The notes beneath the pieces were generated by a model. That model searched no databases. It saw nothing but the letters and a program-made list of their open reading frames with translations, and had not been told where the DNA came from. A DNA stretch of 64,000 nucleotides from Pseudomarimonas salicorniae (GTDB lineage Bacteria; Pseudomonadota; Gammaproteobacteria; Xanthomonadales; Xanthomonadaceae), in contig NZ_JALNMH010000001.1 in the NCBI RefSeq assembly GCF_023156535.1, positions 124,001 to 188,000 of the forward strand, read 5' to 3'. Shown in pieces: positions 28,164-37,046 of this stretch. Made by a program: the position numbers and the translations under genes. Position 1 is the first letter of the stretch, and the number at the start of each line of letters is the position of its first letter.

Positions 28164-28403
28164 TGGGCGCCTGAAGACTCGGCGCAACGCGCCAGCCATT
28201 GAGTGCGCTTTTTCAGGAAAGCACTCGGGCGACCTCCGCGGCGCGGCGGACCGTTGCGTCCAGTCCCCTGCCGGAAATCCAGCCATCTTCGCTGGTCTCG
28301 ATTGAGCAGATAGCCGCCAACCGCGAGGCTACGCCGATCGGCGGCTGGAGATTTCGCTGCCCGAATCCCCTTGACCAGAGCAGGCATGGGAAGGGGAAGA
28401 TCC

Positions 28404-31106
28404 GTGAGCAAGCCGAAGACCTTTGCAAATCGACTATCCGACTGGGTCACGCGCCTCGCGTTCATGAGCCTGATCCTCGCGCCCGGGGCGCAGGCGCAGA
28501 TTCTCGAATTCAAGTCGTCCATCAGTCAGCTCACCCGGCTGGCTGGCCTTAGCCATGGAGCCTGGAGCCCCGGCGGCCAGCACCTCTACGTCGTGGCCGA
28601 CCAGGACGACACGCTGGTGCAGTTCATTCCTTCAGCAGATGGCAGCCTGGCCTTCGGCCAGGTCCTGCGCGATGGCGTCGCCGGCGTGGACGGCCTGGAG
28701 GGCGCCGCCGCCGTGGCGATCAGTCCCGGCGGCGAGCACGTCTACGTGGCGAGCGGCGAGGAGGACGCACTGGCGGCGTTCGCCCGCGACGGCGCCTCGG
28801 GCGAGCTGACGCCCGTCGAGGTCCTGCGCGATGGCATCGACGGCATCGACGGCCTGCTGGGCGCCCGCTTCCTGCTGGTCAGCCCCGATGGCGCGCACGT
28901 CTACGTCGCTGGCCGCGACGACGACGCCATCGCGGTGTTCTCCCGCAACGCCACCACCGGTGCGCTCAGCTTCGTCGAGGCCTTCCGCCGCCCGGCAGAC
29001 CTCGGCTCGCCGGTGCAGGTGGCGATCAGTCCGGATGGCGCGACGCTGTATGCCGTCGGCACGTCCACCAGCAGCCTCGCCGTGCTCGAACGTGACGCCG
29101 GCACCGGCGCATTGAGCTTCCTGCAGAAATTCGAAGCCTACCTGTTCGGCACCCAGGATCCCGATGAAATCGCCGGCATGCTCAATCCGACCGCGGTGCT
29201 GGTGAGCGGCGACGGCGGCCAGGTCTACATCGCATCGCCGATCGACGACACGGTCCTGCGCTTCGACCGCGACGCGGCGACCGGCATGTTGACCTATGCG
29301 GACATCATCGAGGATGGGACGGGCGGCGTCACCGGCCTGAATGGCGCAACCTACCTGTCGCTCAGCCCGGACGGCGCCCACCTCTATGTGGCGGCGCGCA
29401 TCGATGATGCGGTCACCACGCTGGGCCGCGATGCGGGCACCGGCGCATTGAGCTTTCTGGCCACCCAGAACGGTGGCGTGGCCGGGCTCGACTTCGTCGA
29501 GACGGTGCTGGCCAGCCCCGACGGCGCGCTGGTCCACGGCATCAGCGGGCGCGACCGCAGCCTGGTCGCCTTCAGCCGCGACGGCGCAAGCGGCCTGCTG
29601 ACCTATTCCGCCATTCGCGAGGAGCCGCCGACGGACGTGGCCGGCCTCGACCAGATCCGCTCTGTGGCGGTGGACGCCGGCGGAACGCGGATCTATACCG
29701 CGGGCTCGCGTGACAACGCCCTGGGCGTGTTCGCTCTGGACCCGGGGGAGCAGACACTTCGGTTCGTCGAAGCACAGCGCAACGGCGTTGACGGCGTGCG
29801 GGGCCTGACCTCGGTGAACGACGTCGTGGTCTCGCCGGACCGGCGCCATGTCTACGCGGTGTCGCCGGTGGAGCATGTCATCGCGACCTTCAACGTGATC
29901 GGAATCGACGGCGAGCTGCAGTTCGACAGAACCACCTCGGCCCCCGGCATGGGCGGGGCCAGCGCACTGGCCATGAGTGCCGACGGCCGGCACCTCTACG
30001 TGGCCGGCCGCTCCGACGATGCATTGGTGGTGTTCCGGCGGCATGAGCCCAGCGGGCATCTGCGTCGCCTGGAGACCCATGTCAATGGCGAGAATGGGCT
30101 TGCCGGCCTGGTCAGCCCGGACACGATGGCGATCAGTCCCGACGGAACCCTGCTGCTGGTCGCCGCGGCCTTCAGCAGCCAGCCCGTGGCGTTCAGTCGC
30201 GACCCGCAGACAGGGCGCCTGCTGCATGAGCCGGTGAGCATGGCCAAGGGGTTCGGGTCGGCGGCACGGCGCATCGTTTTCTCGCCGGATGGCCTGCACG
30301 TCCTGATCGCCACCGAGTCGCCCCAGCGGCTGCTGGTGCTGCGCATCGACTTTTCCACGGGCGCCCTGGTTCTCACTGAGGTGCAGCGGCTGGAGGACAC
30401 CGGCACCGGCTTCAGCATCAGCGAGGACGGCACCACGGTCACGGTCACCGACGCCGACACCGCCAGCGTGCAGGTCTTCTCCCGGGACCCGGGCAGCGGG
30501 CTGCTCTCGCTGGTGGATACGGCCACCCACGGCCAGGCGGGCGTCAGCGGGGTGTCGGACCCGGCGCCGGTCGAGGATCCGCCGGACTCGCTCGCCCACG
30601 TGATCGTCGGCGACCGCGACGGCTCGCTGGCCCTGTTTGCCACCGCGGCGGCGCCGGTGCCGGGGGCGATCGACGTTCGGATCGACAAATATCTAAGCGA
30701 AGCGGGGGGCGGAGCTTCCGGAGGCGTTGCCGGCTTCGACATCCATGTCTACAACAAGCGAAACGACTCATCGGCCTCGGTGTTTCTCGAGGATCTTCTG
30801 CCGGCCGGTGCCCTTGGCGGCACCTGGCTCGTGCTGGATCAGAATCGATCCAGCCTCAGCACGGAGGACCGTGGCGAGGGCGACCTGCGTTTGGGCTTCC
30901 AGCTCGACCCACGCGGCAGCGGTCCACAGGGGCTGGCATTCGTGCACATCCTCTACGTGATCCAGGTTCCGCCGGGCCTCCGATACTTCAACCGCGCCAC
31001 GGCCACCGCCGAGGGTGACATCAACCCCAAGGACAATATCGCCGGGCATAACAACCTGCCATGGCCGCTCCTGGCGGACGGGTTTGAAGACTTTCTCGAC
31101 GACTGA
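28404..31106 (+). CDS. Secreted double beta-propeller protein with C-terminal ADGFED tag
   Basis: 900-aa secreted protein, start taken as GTG 28404 because AAGGGGAAGA precedes it and a signal peptide follows (about 1-32, ending GAQAQ). At least 13 repeats of about 55 aa with the pattern SPDGxHLYVAxxxDDAxxxFxRD run from about residue 45 to 740, the YVTN/lactonase-type propeller unit. Fourteen blades would make two seven-bladed propellers. A DUF11-like domain follows (about 760-885; DIHVYNKRNDSSASVFLEDL). The chain ends in WPLLADGFEDFLDD. The next gene, also secreted and propeller-like, ends LFADGFEDR. No lactonase active site is evident. Probably an extracellular binding or surface protein. 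Confidence 0.85.
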   Translation: MSKPKTFANRLSDWVTRLAFMSLILAPGAQAQILEFKSSISQLTRLAGLSHGAWSPGGQHLYVVADQDDTLVQFIPSADGSLAFGQVLRDGVAGVDGLEGAAAVAISPGGEHVYVASGEEDALAAFARDGASGELTPVEVLRDGIDGIDGLLGARFLLVSPDGAHVYVAGRDDDAIAVFSRNATTGALSFVEAFRRPADLGSPVQVAISPDGATLYAVGTSTSSLAVLERDAGTGALSFLQKFEAYLFGTQDPDEIAGMLNPTAVLVSGDGGQVYIASPIDDTVLRFDRDAATGMLTYADIIEDGTGGVTGLNGATYLSLSPDGAHLYVAARIDDAVTTLGRDAGTGALSFLATQNGGVAGLDFVETVLASPDGALVHGISGRDRSLVAFSRDGASGLLTYSAIREEPPTDVAGLDQIRSVAVDAGGTRIYTAGSRDNALGVFALDPGEQTLRFVEAQRNGVDGVRGLTSVNDVVVSPDRRHVYAVSPVEHVIATFNVIGIDGELQFDRTTSAPGMGGASALAMSADGRHLYVAGRSDDALVVFRRHEPSGHLRRLETHVNGENGLAGLVSPDTMAISPDGTLLLVAAAFSSQPVAFSRDPQTGRLLHEPVSMAKGFGSAARRIVFSPDGLHVLIATESPQRLLVLRIDFSTGALVLTEVQRLEDTGTGFSISEDGTTVTVTDADTASVQVFSRDPGSGLLSLVDTATHGQAGVSGVSDPAPVEDPPDSLAHVIVGDRDGSLALFATAAAPVPGAIDVRIDKYLSEAGGGASGGVAGFDIHVYNKRNDSSASVFLEDLLPAGALGGTWLVLDQNRSSLSTEDRGEGDLRLGFQLDPRGSGPQGLAFVHILYVIQVPPGLRYFNRATATAEGDINPKDNIAGHNNLPWPLLADGFEDFLDD

Positions 31107-31154
31107 GTGCTCGCTCGATGCGGCAGGCAGGCAACCCAGCCTGAAGGAGACCCG

Positions 31155-33266
31155 ATGAATGATCATGGCTACGCGGGGCATGCGCCGAGTCGCTCATGCT
31201 GGCTGGGCGGCGTGCTTTGCGCAGCGCTGGCAGGCGTAGCGGAGGCCCAGCCCGTACCCATCGGCGACCAGTTCCAGCTCAACAGCCGGATCGCCGGCTT
31301 CCAGTCCAACCCGAGCACGGTGGCGGTGCGCGACGGCTTCCTCACCGTCTGGAGCAGCGCCGACGACGGCCAGTCACTGATCGTCCTGCAGCAACAGGAC
31401 TTCGGCGGCCGACCTGTTGGCGCAGAGGTGCAGGTCAATGAGCTCACCCAGGGCGCGCGAGGCTTCCCCGACGCAGCGGCGAGCGCACTGGTGGGCTCGG
31501 CGGTGGTGGTCTGGGCCGGGGATGGGCGTTGCTGCGAGGAGGGCTTCCAGGACGGCTCCCTGCAGGCGATCCACGCCCGCCGCATGTTCGTCGACGGCAC
31601 TCCGGTAGGACCGGTGTTCGAGGTCAACCAGATCGGCGCCAACCAGCAGCAGCGCCCCGCCGTGGCGATGGACGGCAGCGGTGGCTTCTTCGTGGTCTGG
31701 GAGTCGTTCGGCAACAGCGTGCTGAACCCGTTTCCCGACAAGGGCTGGGCGATCCGGGGCCGGCGCTACCGTCTCGATGGGGTGCCGCGACCGGCCGACC
31801 TGATCAAGGATGAGGCCAAGGGCGTCAGCGAGCCCGGGGATGAGTTCGAGGTGAACACGTTCACCACGGGCGCCCAGCAGCGACCGGCCGTCGCCAGCAA
31901 CTTCTTCGGCACCACCCTGGTCGCCTGGCAAAGCGAAGGCTCACCGGGAAATGATGACCAGGGCCTCAGCATCCAGGCCCGCTGTTTCGGCAGCACCGGC
32001 AGCCCCGGGGTGCAGTTCCAGGTCAATACGACGATTGCCGGCGCGCAGTCGCGACCCGCGGTGGTCTTCGGTCGGTCACGGGCGGTGGTGGCGTGGGAGA
32101 GCCTCGAGCCGTCCGCGACCAGCACGCAGAGCATGATCCGCGCCCAGGTCCTCGACTCGAGCTGCAGCCCGGTGGGCAGCGAGATCGAGGTCAATACGAG
32201 CATCGGCCTGTTCCCCGGCAACCCGCGGGTGGCCATTGATCTCGCCGACAACTTCGTGGTCATCTGGGAGGACGCGTTCGCCAACCCGGACAGCTCCGAG
32301 ATCCTCGCCCAGAGCTTCGACCGCGACGGGCACCGCATCGGAGGGGAGATCCGCGTCAACCAGGCGCTCGGCTTCACCAGCACCGTGCCGACCGTAGGCG
32401 TCTCTCCGCAGGGGCTGCTGTTCGCAGTCTGGGAGAGCGATGGATCGCTGCACGGCGATGACGACCGCACCAGCATCCAGGGCCGCAGCCTGCAGCCGAT
32501 CCTGGAGGACACCATGGACCGTCCCCCCGATGCCTTCGACCTGGTCGGCAACCTGATCTGGGTCGACGAGAACCAGGACGGCCTGCGCGATGCAGGAGAG
32601 CCGCTGTATCCGCTCCGGGGCCTGGTGGAACTGCGGGATCAGACCGGCGCGGTAGTCGACGTCACCTTCTACACCCCCTGGGCCGCCGGATATGCGTTCA
32701 CCGGGGTACCGTCGGGAAATTACCGGCTGTTCTTCCGGATCGCCCCCGATGCCCTGACGGTCAAGGACCAGGGCATGGACGACGAACTCGACAGCGATGC
32801 CGCCCCCGGCACCTATCTCACCGACCTGTTCGCCCACGTGGCCGGCACGGTGGACGTCAGCCGCGATGCAGGCGTGGTCTCGGCACGAGGCCCGGCCATC
32901 GGCAACTTCGTCTGGGAGGATCTCGACGAGGACGGCATCCAGGACGGCGGCGAGCCCGGTGTCGGGAACGTGGAGGTGCGGCTGTTCACCTCCAGCGGGG
33001 CGCTGGCCGGCGAGACCGTGACCACCGACCAGGGATTCTACGAATTCCTCGATCCCGAGCAGGGCGAGTACTACATCGAGATGCGCCTGCCGCCGGGCTA
33101 CGCGGCAACCCGGCTCGATCAGGGCCTCGACGATGGCAAGGACAGCGACCTCGACCCGGTCTCTCTGCGCACCGCGGCATTCCTCTACTTCCAGGGCACT
33201 GTCGACGACACCCGAGACGCCGGCCTCGTGCCGCCATTGTTCGCCGACGGGTTCGAGGACCGCTGA
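31155..33266 (+). CDS. Secreted propeller-like protein with two SdrD B-like domains and ADGFED tag
   Basis: 703-aa secreted protein with an AAGGAG site before the ATG and a signal peptide (about 1-31, ending AEAQ). The N-terminal half holds seven repeats of about 60 aa with the pattern F-x-V-N-(15)-P-A-V and a VVWES strand, consistent with one seven-bladed propeller. Two SdrD B-like (CNA-B/SD-repeat) domains follow at about 462-575 (GNLIWVDENQDGLRDAGEP) and 580-695 (GNFVWEDLDEDGIQDGGEP), with Ca2+-binding-type acidic loops. The C-terminus is PPLFADGFEDR. It lies 48 bases after the previous gene, so the pair is likely an operon. Cell-surface or extracellular adhesion role inferred. Confidence 0.85.
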   Translation: MNDHGYAGHAPSRSCWLGGVLCAALAGVAEAQPVPIGDQFQLNSRIAGFQSNPSTVAVRDGFLTVWSSADDGQSLIVLQQQDFGGRPVGAEVQVNELTQGARGFPDAAASALVGSAVVVWAGDGRCCEEGFQDGSLQAIHARRMFVDGTPVGPVFEVNQIGANQQQRPAVAMDGSGGFFVVWESFGNSVLNPFPDKGWAIRGRRYRLDGVPRPADLIKDEAKGVSEPGDEFEVNTFTTGAQQRPAVASNFFGTTLVAWQSEGSPGNDDQGLSIQARCFGSTGSPGVQFQVNTTIAGAQSRPAVVFGRSRAVVAWESLEPSATSTQSMIRAQVLDSSCSPVGSEIEVNTSIGLFPGNPRVAIDLADNFVVIWEDAFANPDSSEILAQSFDRDGHRIGGEIRVNQALGFTSTVPTVGVSPQGLLFAVWESDGSLHGDDDRTSIQGRSLQPILEDTMDRPPDAFDLVGNLIWVDENQDGLRDAGEPLYPLRGLVELRDQTGAVVDVTFYTPWAAGYAFTGVPSGNYRLFFRIAPDALTVKDQGMDDELDSDAAPGTYLTDLFAHVAGTVDVSRDAGVVSARGPAIGNFVWEDLDEDGIQDGGEPGVGNVEVRLFTSSGALAGETVTTDQGFYEFLDPEQGEYYIEMRLPPGYAATRLDQGLDDGKDSDLDPVSLRTAAFLYFQGTVDDTRDAGLVPPLFADGFEDR

Positions 33267-33269
33267 GCG

Positions 33270-36152
33270 TCAGTCCGTTCCGGAACCCTCCAGCGTCGAC
33301 AAACGCTGGCGAGTACTCCGCGTCTGCGGGTGCTCCGCCCCCTGCCGCAAGGTTCGCTTCTGCAGCGCGTACTTGAACATGTCCCTCGCCTCAGCCAACT
33401 GTCCGCGTAAAGCGAGGATCTCGGCGACCGCCTCGACGGCCGCCAGCGTTCCGGAATGGTCCTCGCCCTGTGTGCGGGTCCTGATCGCCAGCACCTCGCG
33501 CGCGATCGCCTCGGCCTCATCGAGCCGCCCCTGACCCGCCAGGGCTTCCGCGAGGTTCGAACGAACTGCCAGCGTCTGGGCTGCCTCCGGCCCCGACAAC
33601 CTGATGCGCGGAGCGAGGGCGTCCCGGGCCCATGACTCAGCCTCGGCGAAAGCCCCGGTTTTGGAAAGCAGCCCGCTCAGCTGGTTTCGCGCTACCAGCG
33701 TGTTATGGTGCTCCGAGCCATGCACCGCAGTGCGCCGCTGAACCAGGTCGCGCACCATGCCGAGCGCCTCAGCATACCGCTGCTGCTGTTCCAGCACGTG
33801 GGCCAGGTGACCGATGCCCACAAGGGTCACCGGATGGTCCGGACCGAGAACGCGCGAACGCGCCTCGACGACCTCACGCAGCATCTTCTCAGCCGTCCCG
33901 GCGTCGCCCTGCCTGAGCAGGTCCATCGCCAGGTTGGCCTTGGTCACCAGCGTATCCGGCGCCTCCATCCCCTGGGTTCGCTCGAGGATGGCCAGCGCGC
34001 GGCGGTTCAGCTCGGTGGACTCCTCGTAGCGGGCAAGGCGCCCGAGCACCCAGGCCAGGTTGATCATCGACACCACGGTCTTGCGATGGGTCTCTCCCAG
34101 CACGCGAATCCGCCTTTCGAGCAGGTCGCGGTCCATCTCCGCGGCCTCCTCGTAACGACCCGTTTCGCCAAGCTGGAAAGCCAGGTTGCTGAGTGCGTGC
34201 AGGGTCTCCGGGTGGTCGGATCCGAAATGCCGGCTGCGTCGCTCGACGGCTTCACGCGCCAGGGCCAGGGCCTCATCGCGTCGGTCGAGCGCGAACAGGG
34301 TTTCGCCCAGCTGGTTCATTGCGTGGAGGGTGGCGTCGTGGTCGTCGCCGAGGAGTCGCCGGCGTCGCTCGAGTGCATCAGCCAGAAGCGCCGCGGCCTC
34401 CTCGCGTTCGCCCGATTTCGCCAGGGCTTCGGCAAGACCCACCGCGTAGTCGATGGTGGGGACGGCCTCCTCGCCCAGCCGGGCAATGGCGTGCCGATGT
34501 GCGCGGCGCTGCAGGGCGACAGCGTCGGCGTAGCGCCCCTGCTCATTGTGGATGCGCCCCAGCAGGTGGACGGCGGCGAGCGTCGGCAGACCGGCATCGC
34601 CGTGCAGCGCCTCGCGTCGGGCCAGGTTTCGCTCGGCGAATTCCGCGGCGCGATCGAAGAGGCCGAGTGCAAGATAGGTGGCGGCATAGGTTCGTAGAAG
34701 GTCGGCCTGGATGCGGGGCTGGTCAGAGAGCGAGTCGATTCGTGGCTCGAAGCGCTCCAGCAATCCCACCACCGTGAGATCCTTTCCCTCGCGCTCCGGC
34801 GCCGGCGCGCTGAGGAATTCGTTCAGCAGCATCAGCGTCTGCTGCGCTCGCTGCGCCTCGTCGCGGGCATGCATGAAACCGACTGACGTGCCGACCAGTC
34901 CGACGATGAGGCTCAGGATGAGCAGCGCCGTCACCGCCACGCCGACGCGGTGCCGGGCCACGAATCTCGACATGCGATAGCCCGCGCTGGGCGGTCGGGC
35001 CTCGACGGGCTGGTGCGCCAACGCCCGCTGCAGGTCGGCGGCCAGCGCAGAGGGCGACTCGTAGCGCCGCTCGCGGTCCTTCTCGAGCGTCTTGAGAAGA
35101 ATCCAGTCAAGATCGCCGCGCAGGGCCCGGACCAGGGCCTGCATCGAGGTCTGCCGCTTGCCCGCCAGTTCCTCGGACAGGCCGGCCGCACGCAGGCTGG
35201 GACGCGGCGGATCGGTCTCGGCAATCTGCCGGAGCATCGGCAGCAGCGGTCCACCCTCCCCCGCAAAGGGCGTGGTGCCGACCAGCAGTTCGTAGAGCAG
35301 CACGCCGAGGCTGTAGACATCGGCCCGGGTGTCGATGTCCAGGGTTGCGCTCGGGTCGATCTGCTCGGGACTCATGTACATCGGCGAGCCGATCAGGCCG
35401 CCCTCGGTCTTCAGCGTCTGCTCGTTGACCCGCAGATCGGCCGCGCGTGCGATGCCGAAGTCGATGATCTTGGGGATCGCGCGGCCATCCTGCTCGGTGA
35501 CCAGCACGTTGGCGGGCTTGATGTCCCGATGGATCACGCCCTTCTGGTGCGCGTGCTGCAAGGCAGCACACAAGGTCGTGAAGAGTTCGATGCGTGCGCG
35601 CAGGGTCAGTCTACGGCGGTCGCAGTAGTCGGTGATCGGCTCCCCGTCGATCCGCTCCATCACCAGATAGGGGTCGCCGCTTTCGGTGGCGCCGGCATCG
35701 AGAATCTGGGCAATACCCGGGTGCTGCAGCAGTGCCAGCACCTGACGTTCGGCTTCGAACCTGCGGACAAAGCTGGCGTCGATGTGATCGCTGCGGATCA
35801 GCTTCAGTGCCACGTGCCGGCGTACCGGTTCGAGCTGCTCGGCCAGGTACACGGTGCCGAAGCCACCCTCGCCAAGCGGCTCGATCAGCCGGTAGCGGTC
35901 GATCACCGCAGGATGGCCTGTCGTTTCACCGCTGCGCCCCACCGGCGCACCCAGCGCCATCACGCTGCCGCTGACCGGACGTTCAAGAAAGCCCGCCTCC
36001 TGTGCGAGTTCGGCCGCGGCCAGCAGGCGGAACACGCGTTCCTTCATCGCTGAGTCGGCACCGGTCTCCCGTTCGACGTAGCCGCGTCGCGCATCGTCGG
36101 GCAGCGCCAGAGCCGCCTGGTAGATCCGGAGCAGTTCGCGGTCCTCGCTCAT
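33270..36152 (-). CDS. Serine/threonine protein kinase with C-terminal TPR array
   Basis: 960-aa Hanks-type kinase. A short N-terminal helical region (1-85) precedes the kinase domain (about 87-365), which carries GEGGFGTV, K117 (VALK), HRDIKPAN (D210) and DFG (D231), all intact. One transmembrane helix follows at about 404-425 (VAVTALLILSLIVGLVGTSV). The extracytoplasmic part of about 530 aa consists of consecutive tetratricopeptide repeats of the 42-residue TPR_12 type (for example HPETLHALSNLAFQLGETGR). Its start overlaps the ECF sigma gene by 4 bases (ATGA). It converges on the tagged propeller genes with only 3 bases between stops. Kinase-sigma pairs of this type exist in Xanthomonas, where the kinase activates the sigma factor. 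Confidence 0.93.
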   Translation of the reverse strand: MSEDRELLRIYQAALALPDDARRGYVERETGADSAMKERVFRLLAAAELAQEAGFLERPVSGSVMALGAPVGRSGETTGHPAVIDRYRLIEPLGEGGFGTVYLAEQLEPVRRHVALKLIRSDHIDASFVRRFEAERQVLALLQHPGIAQILDAGATESGDPYLVMERIDGEPITDYCDRRRLTLRARIELFTTLCAALQHAHQKGVIHRDIKPANVLVTEQDGRAIPKIIDFGIARAADLRVNEQTLKTEGGLIGSPMYMSPEQIDPSATLDIDTRADVYSLGVLLYELLVGTTPFAGEGGPLLPMLRQIAETDPPRPSLRAAGLSEELAGKRQTSMQALVRALRGDLDWILLKTLEKDRERRYESPSALAADLQRALAHQPVEARPPSAGYRMSRFVARHRVGVAVTALLILSLIVGLVGTSVGFMHARDEAQRAQQTLMLLNEFLSAPAPEREGKDLTVVGLLERFEPRIDSLSDQPRIQADLLRTYAATYLALGLFDRAAEFAERNLARREALHGDAGLPTLAAVHLLGRIHNEQGRYADAVALQRRAHRHAIARLGEEAVPTIDYAVGLAEALAKSGEREEAAALLADALERRRRLLGDDHDATLHAMNQLGETLFALDRRDEALALAREAVERRSRHFGSDHPETLHALSNLAFQLGETGRYEEAAEMDRDLLERRIRVLGETHRKTVVSMINLAWVLGRLARYEESTELNRRALAILERTQGMEAPDTLVTKANLAMDLLRQGDAGTAEKMLREVVEARSRVLGPDHPVTLVGIGHLAHVLEQQQRYAEALGMVRDLVQRRTAVHGSEHHNTLVARNQLSGLLSKTGAFAEAESWARDALAPRIRLSGPEAAQTLAVRSNLAEALAGQGRLDEAEAIAREVLAIRTRTQGEDHSGTLAAVEAVAEILALRGQLAEARDMFKYALQKRTLRQGAEHPQTRSTRQRLSTLEGSGTD

Positions 36153-36715
36153 GGTCCTTCGATCGCCTGAAAGAGCCAGCCACGCGCTGCCTTGATCTCG
36201 GCATGTATCGTCGCCGGGGACAGTTCGGTCACCGCGCAGATCTCGTCGATGCTGAGCCCGCCGAAGAAGCGCATGACGATGATGTCGGACTTGCGTGCAT
36301 CAATCGCCGCAAGCCGGCTCAGTGCCTGGTCGAGGGCCACCAGCTCGGAGTCACGGGGCTGGTGTGCGACATGGCTCAGGCTCACCCGCAAGAGGTCGCC
36401 ACCGCGCTTTTGCGAAAGACGCTGTCGCGCCTGGGCGACCAGCAGATGCCGCATGACGGTCGAAGCGTAGGAGAAGAAATGCCGGCGGTCGGGCCAGTCC
36501 GGCACCTGGCCGCTGAACATCTGCAGGTAGGCCTCGTGGACCAGCTCCGTGGTCTGCATTGCGGGAACGGGGCCTTCGCCGCGCATGTGTCGGCTGGCGA
36601 GCTCCTTGAGCTGCCCATACACCAGGGCCATCAGCCGGCTGCGCGCAGCAGCGTCTCCCTGCCGCGATCTGCCTAGCAACTCGGTCACCGCGTTCGGCTT
36701 GAAATCCTCAGGCAT
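36149..36715 (-). CDS. ECF sigma factor of the kinase-associated type
   Basis: 188-aa ECF-like sigma factor. It has region 2 (about 8-90; ELLGRSRQGDAAARSRLMAL and RHFFSYASTVMRHLLVAQAR) and region 4 (about 125-180; LDQALSRLAAIDARKSDIIV and SIDEICAVTELSPATIHAEI). The RHFFSYASTVMRHLLV and GGDLLRVSL stretches resemble the subgroup TIGR02999/ECF43 that occurs next to Ser/Thr kinases. No anti-sigma gene is adjacent, which fits control by phosphorylation. The ATG at 36715 gives the normal start; the upstream extension to 36874 is low-complexity. Confidence 0.88.
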   Translation of the reverse strand: MPEDFKPNAVTELLGRSRQGDAAARSRLMALVYGQLKELASRHMRGEGPVPAMQTTELVHEAYLQMFSGQVPDWPDRRHFFSYASTVMRHLLVAQARQRLSQKRGGDLLRVSLSHVAHQPRDSELVALDQALSRLAAIDARKSDIIVMRFFGGLSIDEICAVTELSPATIHAEIKAARGWLFQAIEGP

Positions 36716-37046
36716 GCCCGCGCGCCTGTTCGACGGCGCGGCCGGTCCCGCGCGCACGTATGGCGCGAAGCTACGTCGTTCCGTGGGGGGGTGCAACAGC
36801 ACCGCGCAAAGCCAGCGATCCCGAACCAACCGTCGGAACGGGCATCGGTCGCATTGCGCGCATCGCGGCAGCAAGCAGCCCCGCCGGGCTCAGCGCTCAA
36901 GCTTGCACGGCCTATCGGACACCGAAACTGGCTGTGCGCTCTTGGTCTGCCGCCCCGTTGGCCGCCATCGAGGCGGGGCGCTGCCCAAGCGCTGGAGCAA
37001 TGGATCTATCGATTTGCGAGAGGCGCCGCGGGGCCAGGTCCACCTC
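36716..37046. other. Intergenic region, no gene recognised
   Basis: 331 bases between the ECF sigma start and the end of the GlxA-type regulator, both on the minus strand. It must hold the promoter of the sigma-kinase operon, but I see no clear -35/-10, repeat or small gene. Confidence 0.4.

Follow-up and report, generated by a model that had tools for sequence, protein, structure and literature searches.

Two adjacent genes encode proteins that end in LLADGFEDFLDD and LFADGFEDR (Table 1). They lie in the window analyzed here, a stretch of 64,000 nucleotides from Pseudomarimonas salicorniae (contig NZ_JALNMH010000001.1, positions 124,001 to 188,000; class Gammaproteobacteria, order Xanthomonadales/Lysobacterales). 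The two endings, which the first-pass annotation had pointed out, were confirmed in the translations of the open reading frames (ORFs). They belong to a short tag with the consensus [LIVM]-F-x-[DN]-G-F-E, here called the GFE tag. This tag was found to be real and to sit mostly on exported proteins; it is neither a tripartite CTERM signal nor a C-terminal domain of the type IX secretion system (T9SS). Within the order it co-occurred, with exceptions, with a second lineage of the type II secretion system (T2SS). This lineage, designated T2SS-A, is that of the clade-A GspD proteins; clade B is the widespread T2SS.

Table 1. Tagged genes of the window, their neighbors, and the T2SS-A genes of the same genome
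Feature	Position	Strand	Remarks
Tagged exported protein 1, lactonase-type beta-propeller	ORF 28371..31106	+	Probable true start GTG ~28404; C-terminus reads ...WPLLADGFEDFLDD
C-terminal tag of protein 1, LLADGFEDFLDD	31068..31103	+	Core variant L-A-D-G-F-E
Tagged exported protein 2, SdrD_B domains	ORF 31107..33266	+	Probable true start ATG ~31155; signal peptide by eye; C-terminus reads ...PPLFADGFEDR
C-terminal tag of protein 2, LFADGFEDR	33237..33263	+
Ser/Thr protein kinase with tetratricopeptide (TPR) repeats, convergent with protein 2	33270..36152	-	Probable partner of the extracytoplasmic function (ECF) sigma factor
ECF sigma factor	36149..36874	-	TIGR02999, 175.9 bits (cut-off 126.15)
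T2SS-A genes gspC, gspD, gspE	Contig C28

The first-pass annotation had taken both proteins for propellers. This held for protein 1, which matched the lactonase-type beta-propeller family of Pfam (PF10282, 7e-66), but protein 2 contained no recognized propeller and matched SdrD_B instead (PF17210, 2.6e-48), with an N-terminal part ahead of it that had no Pfam match. Both had also been described as secreted. With the internal starts, a signal peptide could be seen by eye in each, but the heuristic rule by which signal peptides were called here, in place of SignalP, detected only that of protein 1. Protein 2 was missed because its n-region carries no net positive charge. No CTERM-type model matched either protein (NCBIfam, E up to 10). 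An AlphaFold2 model of window positions 32544-33263, made without an alignment, had a mean pLDDT of 37 and gave no usable structure of the tag.

Genome-wide (G000; 4.54 Mb in 32 contigs), codons for ADGFED matched just the two window sites, with no match for the reversed control. Codons for DGFE gave 60 matches, against 7 for the reversed pattern, and those for F..GF[D/E] gave 75 against 16. A chance origin of the tag was rejected on the strength of these controls. Synonymous codons differed among the copies, indicating that the tag is conserved at the protein level and is no DNA repeat. A repeat or mobile element was rejected for the same reason.

A census of this genome collected 114 ORFs, each 120 residues or longer, that contained F..GF[D/E] or DGFE. 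In 39 of these, both window proteins included, the motif lay no more than 14 residues from the stop codon. Under a looser start range than elsewhere, a signal peptide was called in 28 of these C-terminal candidates, and three more were open at the 5' end of the stretch read. The tag was thus not confined to the two secreted proteins of the window. Genes were taken by a longest-ORF rule, which sometimes picks antisense ORFs in GC-rich DNA, and a few of the 39 candidates probably represent chance matches or antisense ORFs. The motif stood directly behind the signal peptide in five of the 114 (four of them with the F) and elsewhere in 70, of which 21 also passed the loose signal-peptide rule. Two DUF1800 proteins (L053:1121-3079 and L058:13821-15761, both on the + strand) carry FGDGFE directly behind the signal peptide, which makes it the mature N-terminus. 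Variants with a cysteine were also seen, namely HCDGFEQR, HCDGFESR and YCDGFEETPC (L052 near 4406, L057 near 14258 and L014 near 1501).

The form of the tag was examined in 91 C-terminal F..GFE tails. They came from regions sampled in four genomes (G380, G474, G375 and G000), with ORFs of 150 residues or more considered. L, I, V or M preceded the F in 88 of them. This residue was part of no search pattern, so its frequency is independent. N or D stood two residues after the F in 82 tails, a position that belonged to the patterns by which most regions were chosen. Indeed, the frequencies of F, D/N, G, F and E are not independent, because the sampled regions were chosen for holding the motif. 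The protein ended exactly at E in 56 of the 91, at most 14 residues followed the motif in all of them, and S followed the E in one. Neither a transmembrane helix nor a basic cluster was found downstream of the motif in any of the 91.

In G375 and G474, where regions were picked without requiring a stop codon, F..GFE lay within 20 residues of the C-terminus in 49 of 58 cases, at the mature N-terminus in two and inside the protein in seven. Tags at the mature N-terminus were found in four P. salicorniae proteins and in L245 and L277. The conserved extreme C-terminus proposed earlier therefore describes most copies, while others occupy the mature N-terminus or, less often, an internal position. 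In four tagged proteins of G375 (L265, L266, L270 and L278), 86-94 residues continue past the motif; by eye these extensions fall into two look-alike pairs, one of them calcium-repeat-like.

Signal peptides were called in 60 of the 91 tagged ORFs, compared with 208 of 957 untagged ORFs in the same regions (Fisher p 1.7e-17). With F..GFE counted anywhere in the ORF, the bias appeared in each genome: 21/25 tagged vs 63/276 untagged in G380, 10/14 vs 29/232 in G474, 25/44 vs 62/219 in G375, and 13/23 vs 66/410 in P. salicorniae. This supported the earlier proposal of a sorting or secretion tag, which would not be expected to occur as often on cytosolic proteins.

The bodies of the tagged proteins were mostly unrelated. 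An alignment of 63 of them (from G380 and G375) had a mean column identity of 6%, with F, G, F and E common by construction. Their Pfam matches included subtilase (7), FG-GAP types (up to 4), beta helix (3), M14 peptidase (2) and others. Among the first 25 of 75 NCBIfam families (E up to 1) were choice-of-anchor domains Q (6), J (2), B (1) and D (1), and M36 models described as rhombosortase- (7), myxosortase- (4) and T9SS-dependent (3). Judged by these models, the bodies are of families that bear other sorting tags elsewhere. A short terminus common to unrelated exported proteins, as seen here, is a general feature of sorting tags. In one tagged G380 protein (L189:3448-8535, + strand), T9SS tail models scored over their cut-offs (TIGR04183, 41.7 vs 23 bits; PF18962, 29.3 vs 27) inside a repeat region, at residues 865-904 of 1696. 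This internal match, away from the tag, is probably a beta-sandwich look-alike.

The distribution of the tag was followed with a strict form, F-x-[DN]-G-F-E-stop, and a loose form without the stop. The stop pattern, TRR, also admits TGG, which accounted for two of 33 rows in a variant search described below and for one match seen in the class-wide search, with none seen among the rows listed for the order. Within the order, 76 of the 151 genomes searched had the strict form, at most 56 times in one genome, whereas reversed controls gave 0-1. The loose form gave 24-125 matches per genome in eight chosen genomes, against 0-3 in controls.

A class-wide search for the strict form (369 genomes) gave 34 matches beyond P. 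salicorniae. Thirty were outside the order, compared with 30 in the reversed controls (counted by eye). Of the 29 outside matches inspected, 28 lay in ORFs of 4-63 residues and one in a 100-residue ORF open at its 5' end. A wide spread of the tag in the class was therefore rejected, as the matches outside the order were at background. Two ORFs outside the order, L147 (G005) and L149 (G159), end in ...VLFLNGFE or ...MLFTNGFE and resemble the genuine tag.

An export gene co-occurring with the tag across genomes, as a sorting tag would lead one to look for, was found in the second T2SS lineage. In 43 chosen genomes, set apart as tag-bearing or tag-poor by their strict tag count (the latter may have other forms), two GspD copies above the cut-off were present in all 21 tag-bearing genomes. 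One or none was present in 16 of the 22 tag-poor genomes, the others being G274, G376, G393, G425, G438 and G459 with two or more. A tree of 40 GspD sequences from 24 of these genomes, picked by hand and with one more over-cut-off copy each in G425 and G438 left out, consisted of two deep clades, A and B. Clade A was represented in 13 of 13 tag-bearing genomes and in one of 11 tag-poor ones (G376), with a distant copy in G274. Clade B occurred in tag-bearing and tag-poor genomes alike, and all 13 tag-bearing genomes held both. The genomes without A stood at four separate places of the clade-B tree (by eye, with this tree as a proxy for descent), and each was tag-poor.

Across the order, clade-A GspD was present in 82 of the 151 genomes, presence being set as a best match of 299 bits or more. 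Below this came six f1 genomes of the same kind as G274, which scored 224-233 bits and were counted as lacking it. Two or more strict tags were found in 57 of the 82 genomes with clade A, compared with 5 of the 69 without (Fisher p 5.6e-16). When family f190 was left out, the figures were 54 of 58 and 5 of 69. The contrast was also seen within families: 2/2 with clade A vs 0/23 without in f1 (p 0.003), and 4/4 vs 0/20 in f2 (p 9e-5); in f188 it was not significant (1/3 vs 1/21). Conversely, clade-A GspD was present in 57 of the 62 genomes that held two or more strict tags, or in 58 when G482 was counted by its GspE. Loose matches were numerous in two further carriers of clade-A GspD, Pseudomarimonas arenosa (52, control 0) and a metagenome-assembled genome (MAG) of Lysobacterales (34, control 0), and numbered 8 in the MAG KatS3mg126 (control 1). 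The clade-A T2SS thus showed, with exceptions, the many-to-one pairing of tag and machine across genomes that sorting tags have.

In P. salicorniae itself, clade-A GspD and GspE scored over their cut-offs (TIGR02517, 533.7 vs 351.35 bits; TIGR02533, 684.7 vs 630.25). GspC, at 91.0 bits, was under its cut-off of 101.6, as was that of L295 (84.3), while GspC and GspF were both over cut-off in the relative L303. In several relatives, gspC-D-E(-F) lay between rho, trxA and rhlB at one end and ftsE or rpoH at the other (by eye). Models confirmed these flanks in L285, L301 and L303; L313, L323 and others are among such loci. The arrangement was not present at the clade-A locus of P. salicorniae. Its recurrence in several families suggests that the T2SS-A locus is old and vertically inherited.

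We tentatively interpreted the tag, at close to an even chance, as a short linear address label carried by folded proteins that Sec has exported; T2SS-A would recognize it non-covalently as an exposed chain end. Tagged proteins would be exported by Sec and lose their signal peptide, a step supported by the signal-peptide enrichment. Folding in the periplasm would follow, the tag forming a flexible tail or a new N-terminus. The tag might dock to GspC, the N-domains of GspD, the pseudopilus tip or another part of T2SS-A that lies in the periplasm, and the tagged protein would leave through the secretin. The fuller proposal is possible, and we hold it at somewhat less than an even chance: that one subclass of the T2SS recognizes a chain end of seven residues, be it N- or C-terminal, that it has dozens of unrelated clients in each genome, and that a sister family uses a diverged dialect.

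Several points fit the cargo label. Tags occurred mainly with T2SS-A, while T2SS-A can exist with few strict tags, and this is the asymmetry expected of such a label. Passages of PMC5449463 describe the T2SS as a known route by which folded signal-peptide proteins cross the outer membrane, and tagged proteins are mostly of this kind, as a T2SS cargo should be. The N-terminal copies favor docking of an exposed end over C-terminal transpeptidation or cutting. The match of the tagged bodies to families with other sorting tags fits as well. According to passages of PMC11981180 (2025) and PMC5449463 (2017), no signal that directs T2SS cargo through the outer membrane has been identified or elucidated. 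The GFE tag would have the same role as such a signal but, as a shared linear tag, would be new with respect to the cargo described there. A tag shared by dozens of mostly unrelated proteins and following one T2SS subclass makes the recognition of T2SS cargo directly testable.

A number of observations weigh against the link to T2SS-A. Fewer than two strict tags were found in 25 of the 82 clade-A genomes: 21 in family f190, plus G446, G491, G428 and G377. Two other clade-A carriers had loose matches at background (Rehaibacterium terrae, 2, control 1; Alkalisalibacterium limincola, 2, control 0). Tags were present without clade-A GspD or GspE in G461 (4), G412 (6), G423 (18) and G487 (27); completeness is 77-96% for G412, G423 and G487, which are in 150-530 contigs, and 98% for G461, in 80. 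The fifth exception, G482, holds a clade-A GspE, and its lack of gspD is therefore probably an assembly gap. There was no general physical link, with a tagged gene in one of 14 clade-A loci (L297) and none seen in five named loci. Some tags were internal to proteins, as in the seven cases from G375 and G474. The copy number of ECF43-like sigma factors tracked the tag count as well (Spearman 0.74, n=43). Finally, the evidence for the T2SS is all correlation inside one order, and shared ancestry inflates the p-values.

Family f190 had clade A in 24 of 24 genomes and fewer than two strict tags in 21; G376, the lone tag-poor genome with clade A on the GspD tree, belongs to it. A variant search (F.[DN].FE + TRR) in eight f190 genomes of genus g290 gave 21 matches, 19 of them with a true stop, against one in the control. 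R took the place of the G of the motif in 10 of the 19, and K, S, A, N, Y or Q did so in the rest. The same pattern gave no match in five genomes without clade A (controls, 4). This was suggestive of a diverged tail dialect in f190, often F-x-[DN]-R-F-E. In the f188 clade-A genomes G446 and G491 the variant pattern gave no match either, a further point against the link.

The existence of T2SS-A with few or no strict tags (f190, Rehaibacterium, Alkalisalibacterium) would also be accommodated if proteins left by either T2SS, A or B, without help from the tag, and the tag then anchored them to a surface receptor or matrix in the same genomes. We considered this surface retention doubtful, though the strongest of the alternatives. 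The cargo does resemble adhesins and surface proteins (SdrD_B, FG-GAP, cadherin-like, choice-of-anchor), and use of the tag at either terminus fits a docking peptide. On the other hand, no receptor gene was found, and such a receptor would also have to follow the distribution of T2SS-A.

Rather improbably, tags and T2SS-A may have been present early in the order and been lost together with a surface-active lifestyle, with no interaction between them. A common lifestyle could drive both, because the ECF43-like regulators have a similar profile, at the correlation given above. Their copies numbered 5-35 in 20 of the 21 tag-bearing genomes and 0-3 in 18 of the 22 tag-poor ones; by clade A, the range was 0-35 in carriers (23 genomes) and 0-8 in the others (20 genomes). 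The non-significant contrast in f188 points the same way. Against a mere coincidence stand the joint absence of tags and clade A at four places of the clade-B tree and the sharp contrasts within f1 and f2. In addition, G481, a genome with both tags and T2SS-A, gave no ECF match at E 1e-10, so that the T2SS fits this genome better than the regulators do. ECF sigma factors were rejected as the primary partner of the tag on the same ground.

The first-pass annotation had compared the tag to PEP-CTERM and T9SS tags, and neither likeness stood up. The pattern of many proteins with one terminal tag does recall CTERM systems. As with PEP-CTERM and exosortase in passages of PMC3237569, some genomes have dozens of tagged proteins and their relatives none. 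The same passages describe GlyGly-CTERM as a short C-terminal homology on otherwise unrelated signal-peptide proteins, in species that generally have a T2SS, and this likewise applies to the GFE tag and its host genomes. GlyGly-CTERM, however, consists there of a motif, a transmembrane helix and a basic cluster, is paired with a rhomboid protease, and marks no T2SS subclass through its rhombosortase. In contrast, the GFE tag has no helix, also occurs at N-termini and follows a T2SS subclass. It also lacks the tripartite architecture of PEP-CTERM: 56 of 91 tails end at E, no helix or basic tail follows the motif, and the N-terminal copies (four in P. salicorniae, L245 and L277) show that it is not strictly C-terminal. 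The tag is therefore not of the PEP-CTERM or GlyGly type, and exosortase-type processing was rejected, as the architecture does not fit. For the same reasons, removal of the tag by a dedicated protease or sortase-like enzyme, in the style of PEP-CTERM, GlyGly-CTERM or MYXO-CTERM, appeared very unlikely. No CTERM model was among the first 25 of 75 NCBIfam families matched by the 63 proteins; genes for exosortase, rhombosortase and myxosortase were not searched.

The T9SS C-terminal domain (Por_Secre_tail) is a C-terminal signal for crossing the outer membrane, which is the role proposed for the GFE tag. That domain comprises some 70-80 residues (72 positions in TIGR04183, 75 in PF18962). The GFE tag, on the other hand, has seven, and different folds end directly before it. 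It thus falls outside the known tag families compared, whose tested defining features it lacks. No description of it was found in the papers searched, by motif strings or by topic. Should the T2SS link fail, the tag would remain one of no known family. Matching up to 125 times per genome, it would mark out a large share of the secreted or surface proteome in part of the order.

FxDGFESGDxSxW is a common opening of jelly-roll domains, and one P. salicorniae protein ends IFSDGFESGDVSAWSCN while a few tags precede further sequence, but a structural cap or domain-start relic kept for stability is hardly credible, given that the same motif occurs on different folds, that the E is the last residue of 56 of the 91 tails and is followed by S in just one, and that such a relic would have no reason to follow T2SS-A.

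The ECF sigma factor gene of the window adjoins a Hanks-type kinase gene (33270-36874), a feature of ECF43. By this kinase neighbor, rather than by a tree, it would be classed as ECF43-like. In passages of PMC13147305, the ECF43 and Hanks kinase pair EcfK-PknS is required for a type VI secretion system. The window pair resembles it in gene arrangement; its link to tagged cargo is one of position and co-distribution. Judging from this linkage, such pairs probably switch on some of the tagged genes. A conserved gene beside the tagged genes was otherwise rejected: just two families, one of them the ECF sigma factor, came up again in three of the four sampled genomes. No such ECF gene was seen near tagged genes in the sampled G380 regions. 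P. salicorniae has six such ECF genes at E 1e-10, and for four ECF matches the distance to an F..GFE is 0.3-3.3 kb. ECF genes like that of the window also neighbor tagged genes in G375 and G474, making three of the four sampled genomes.

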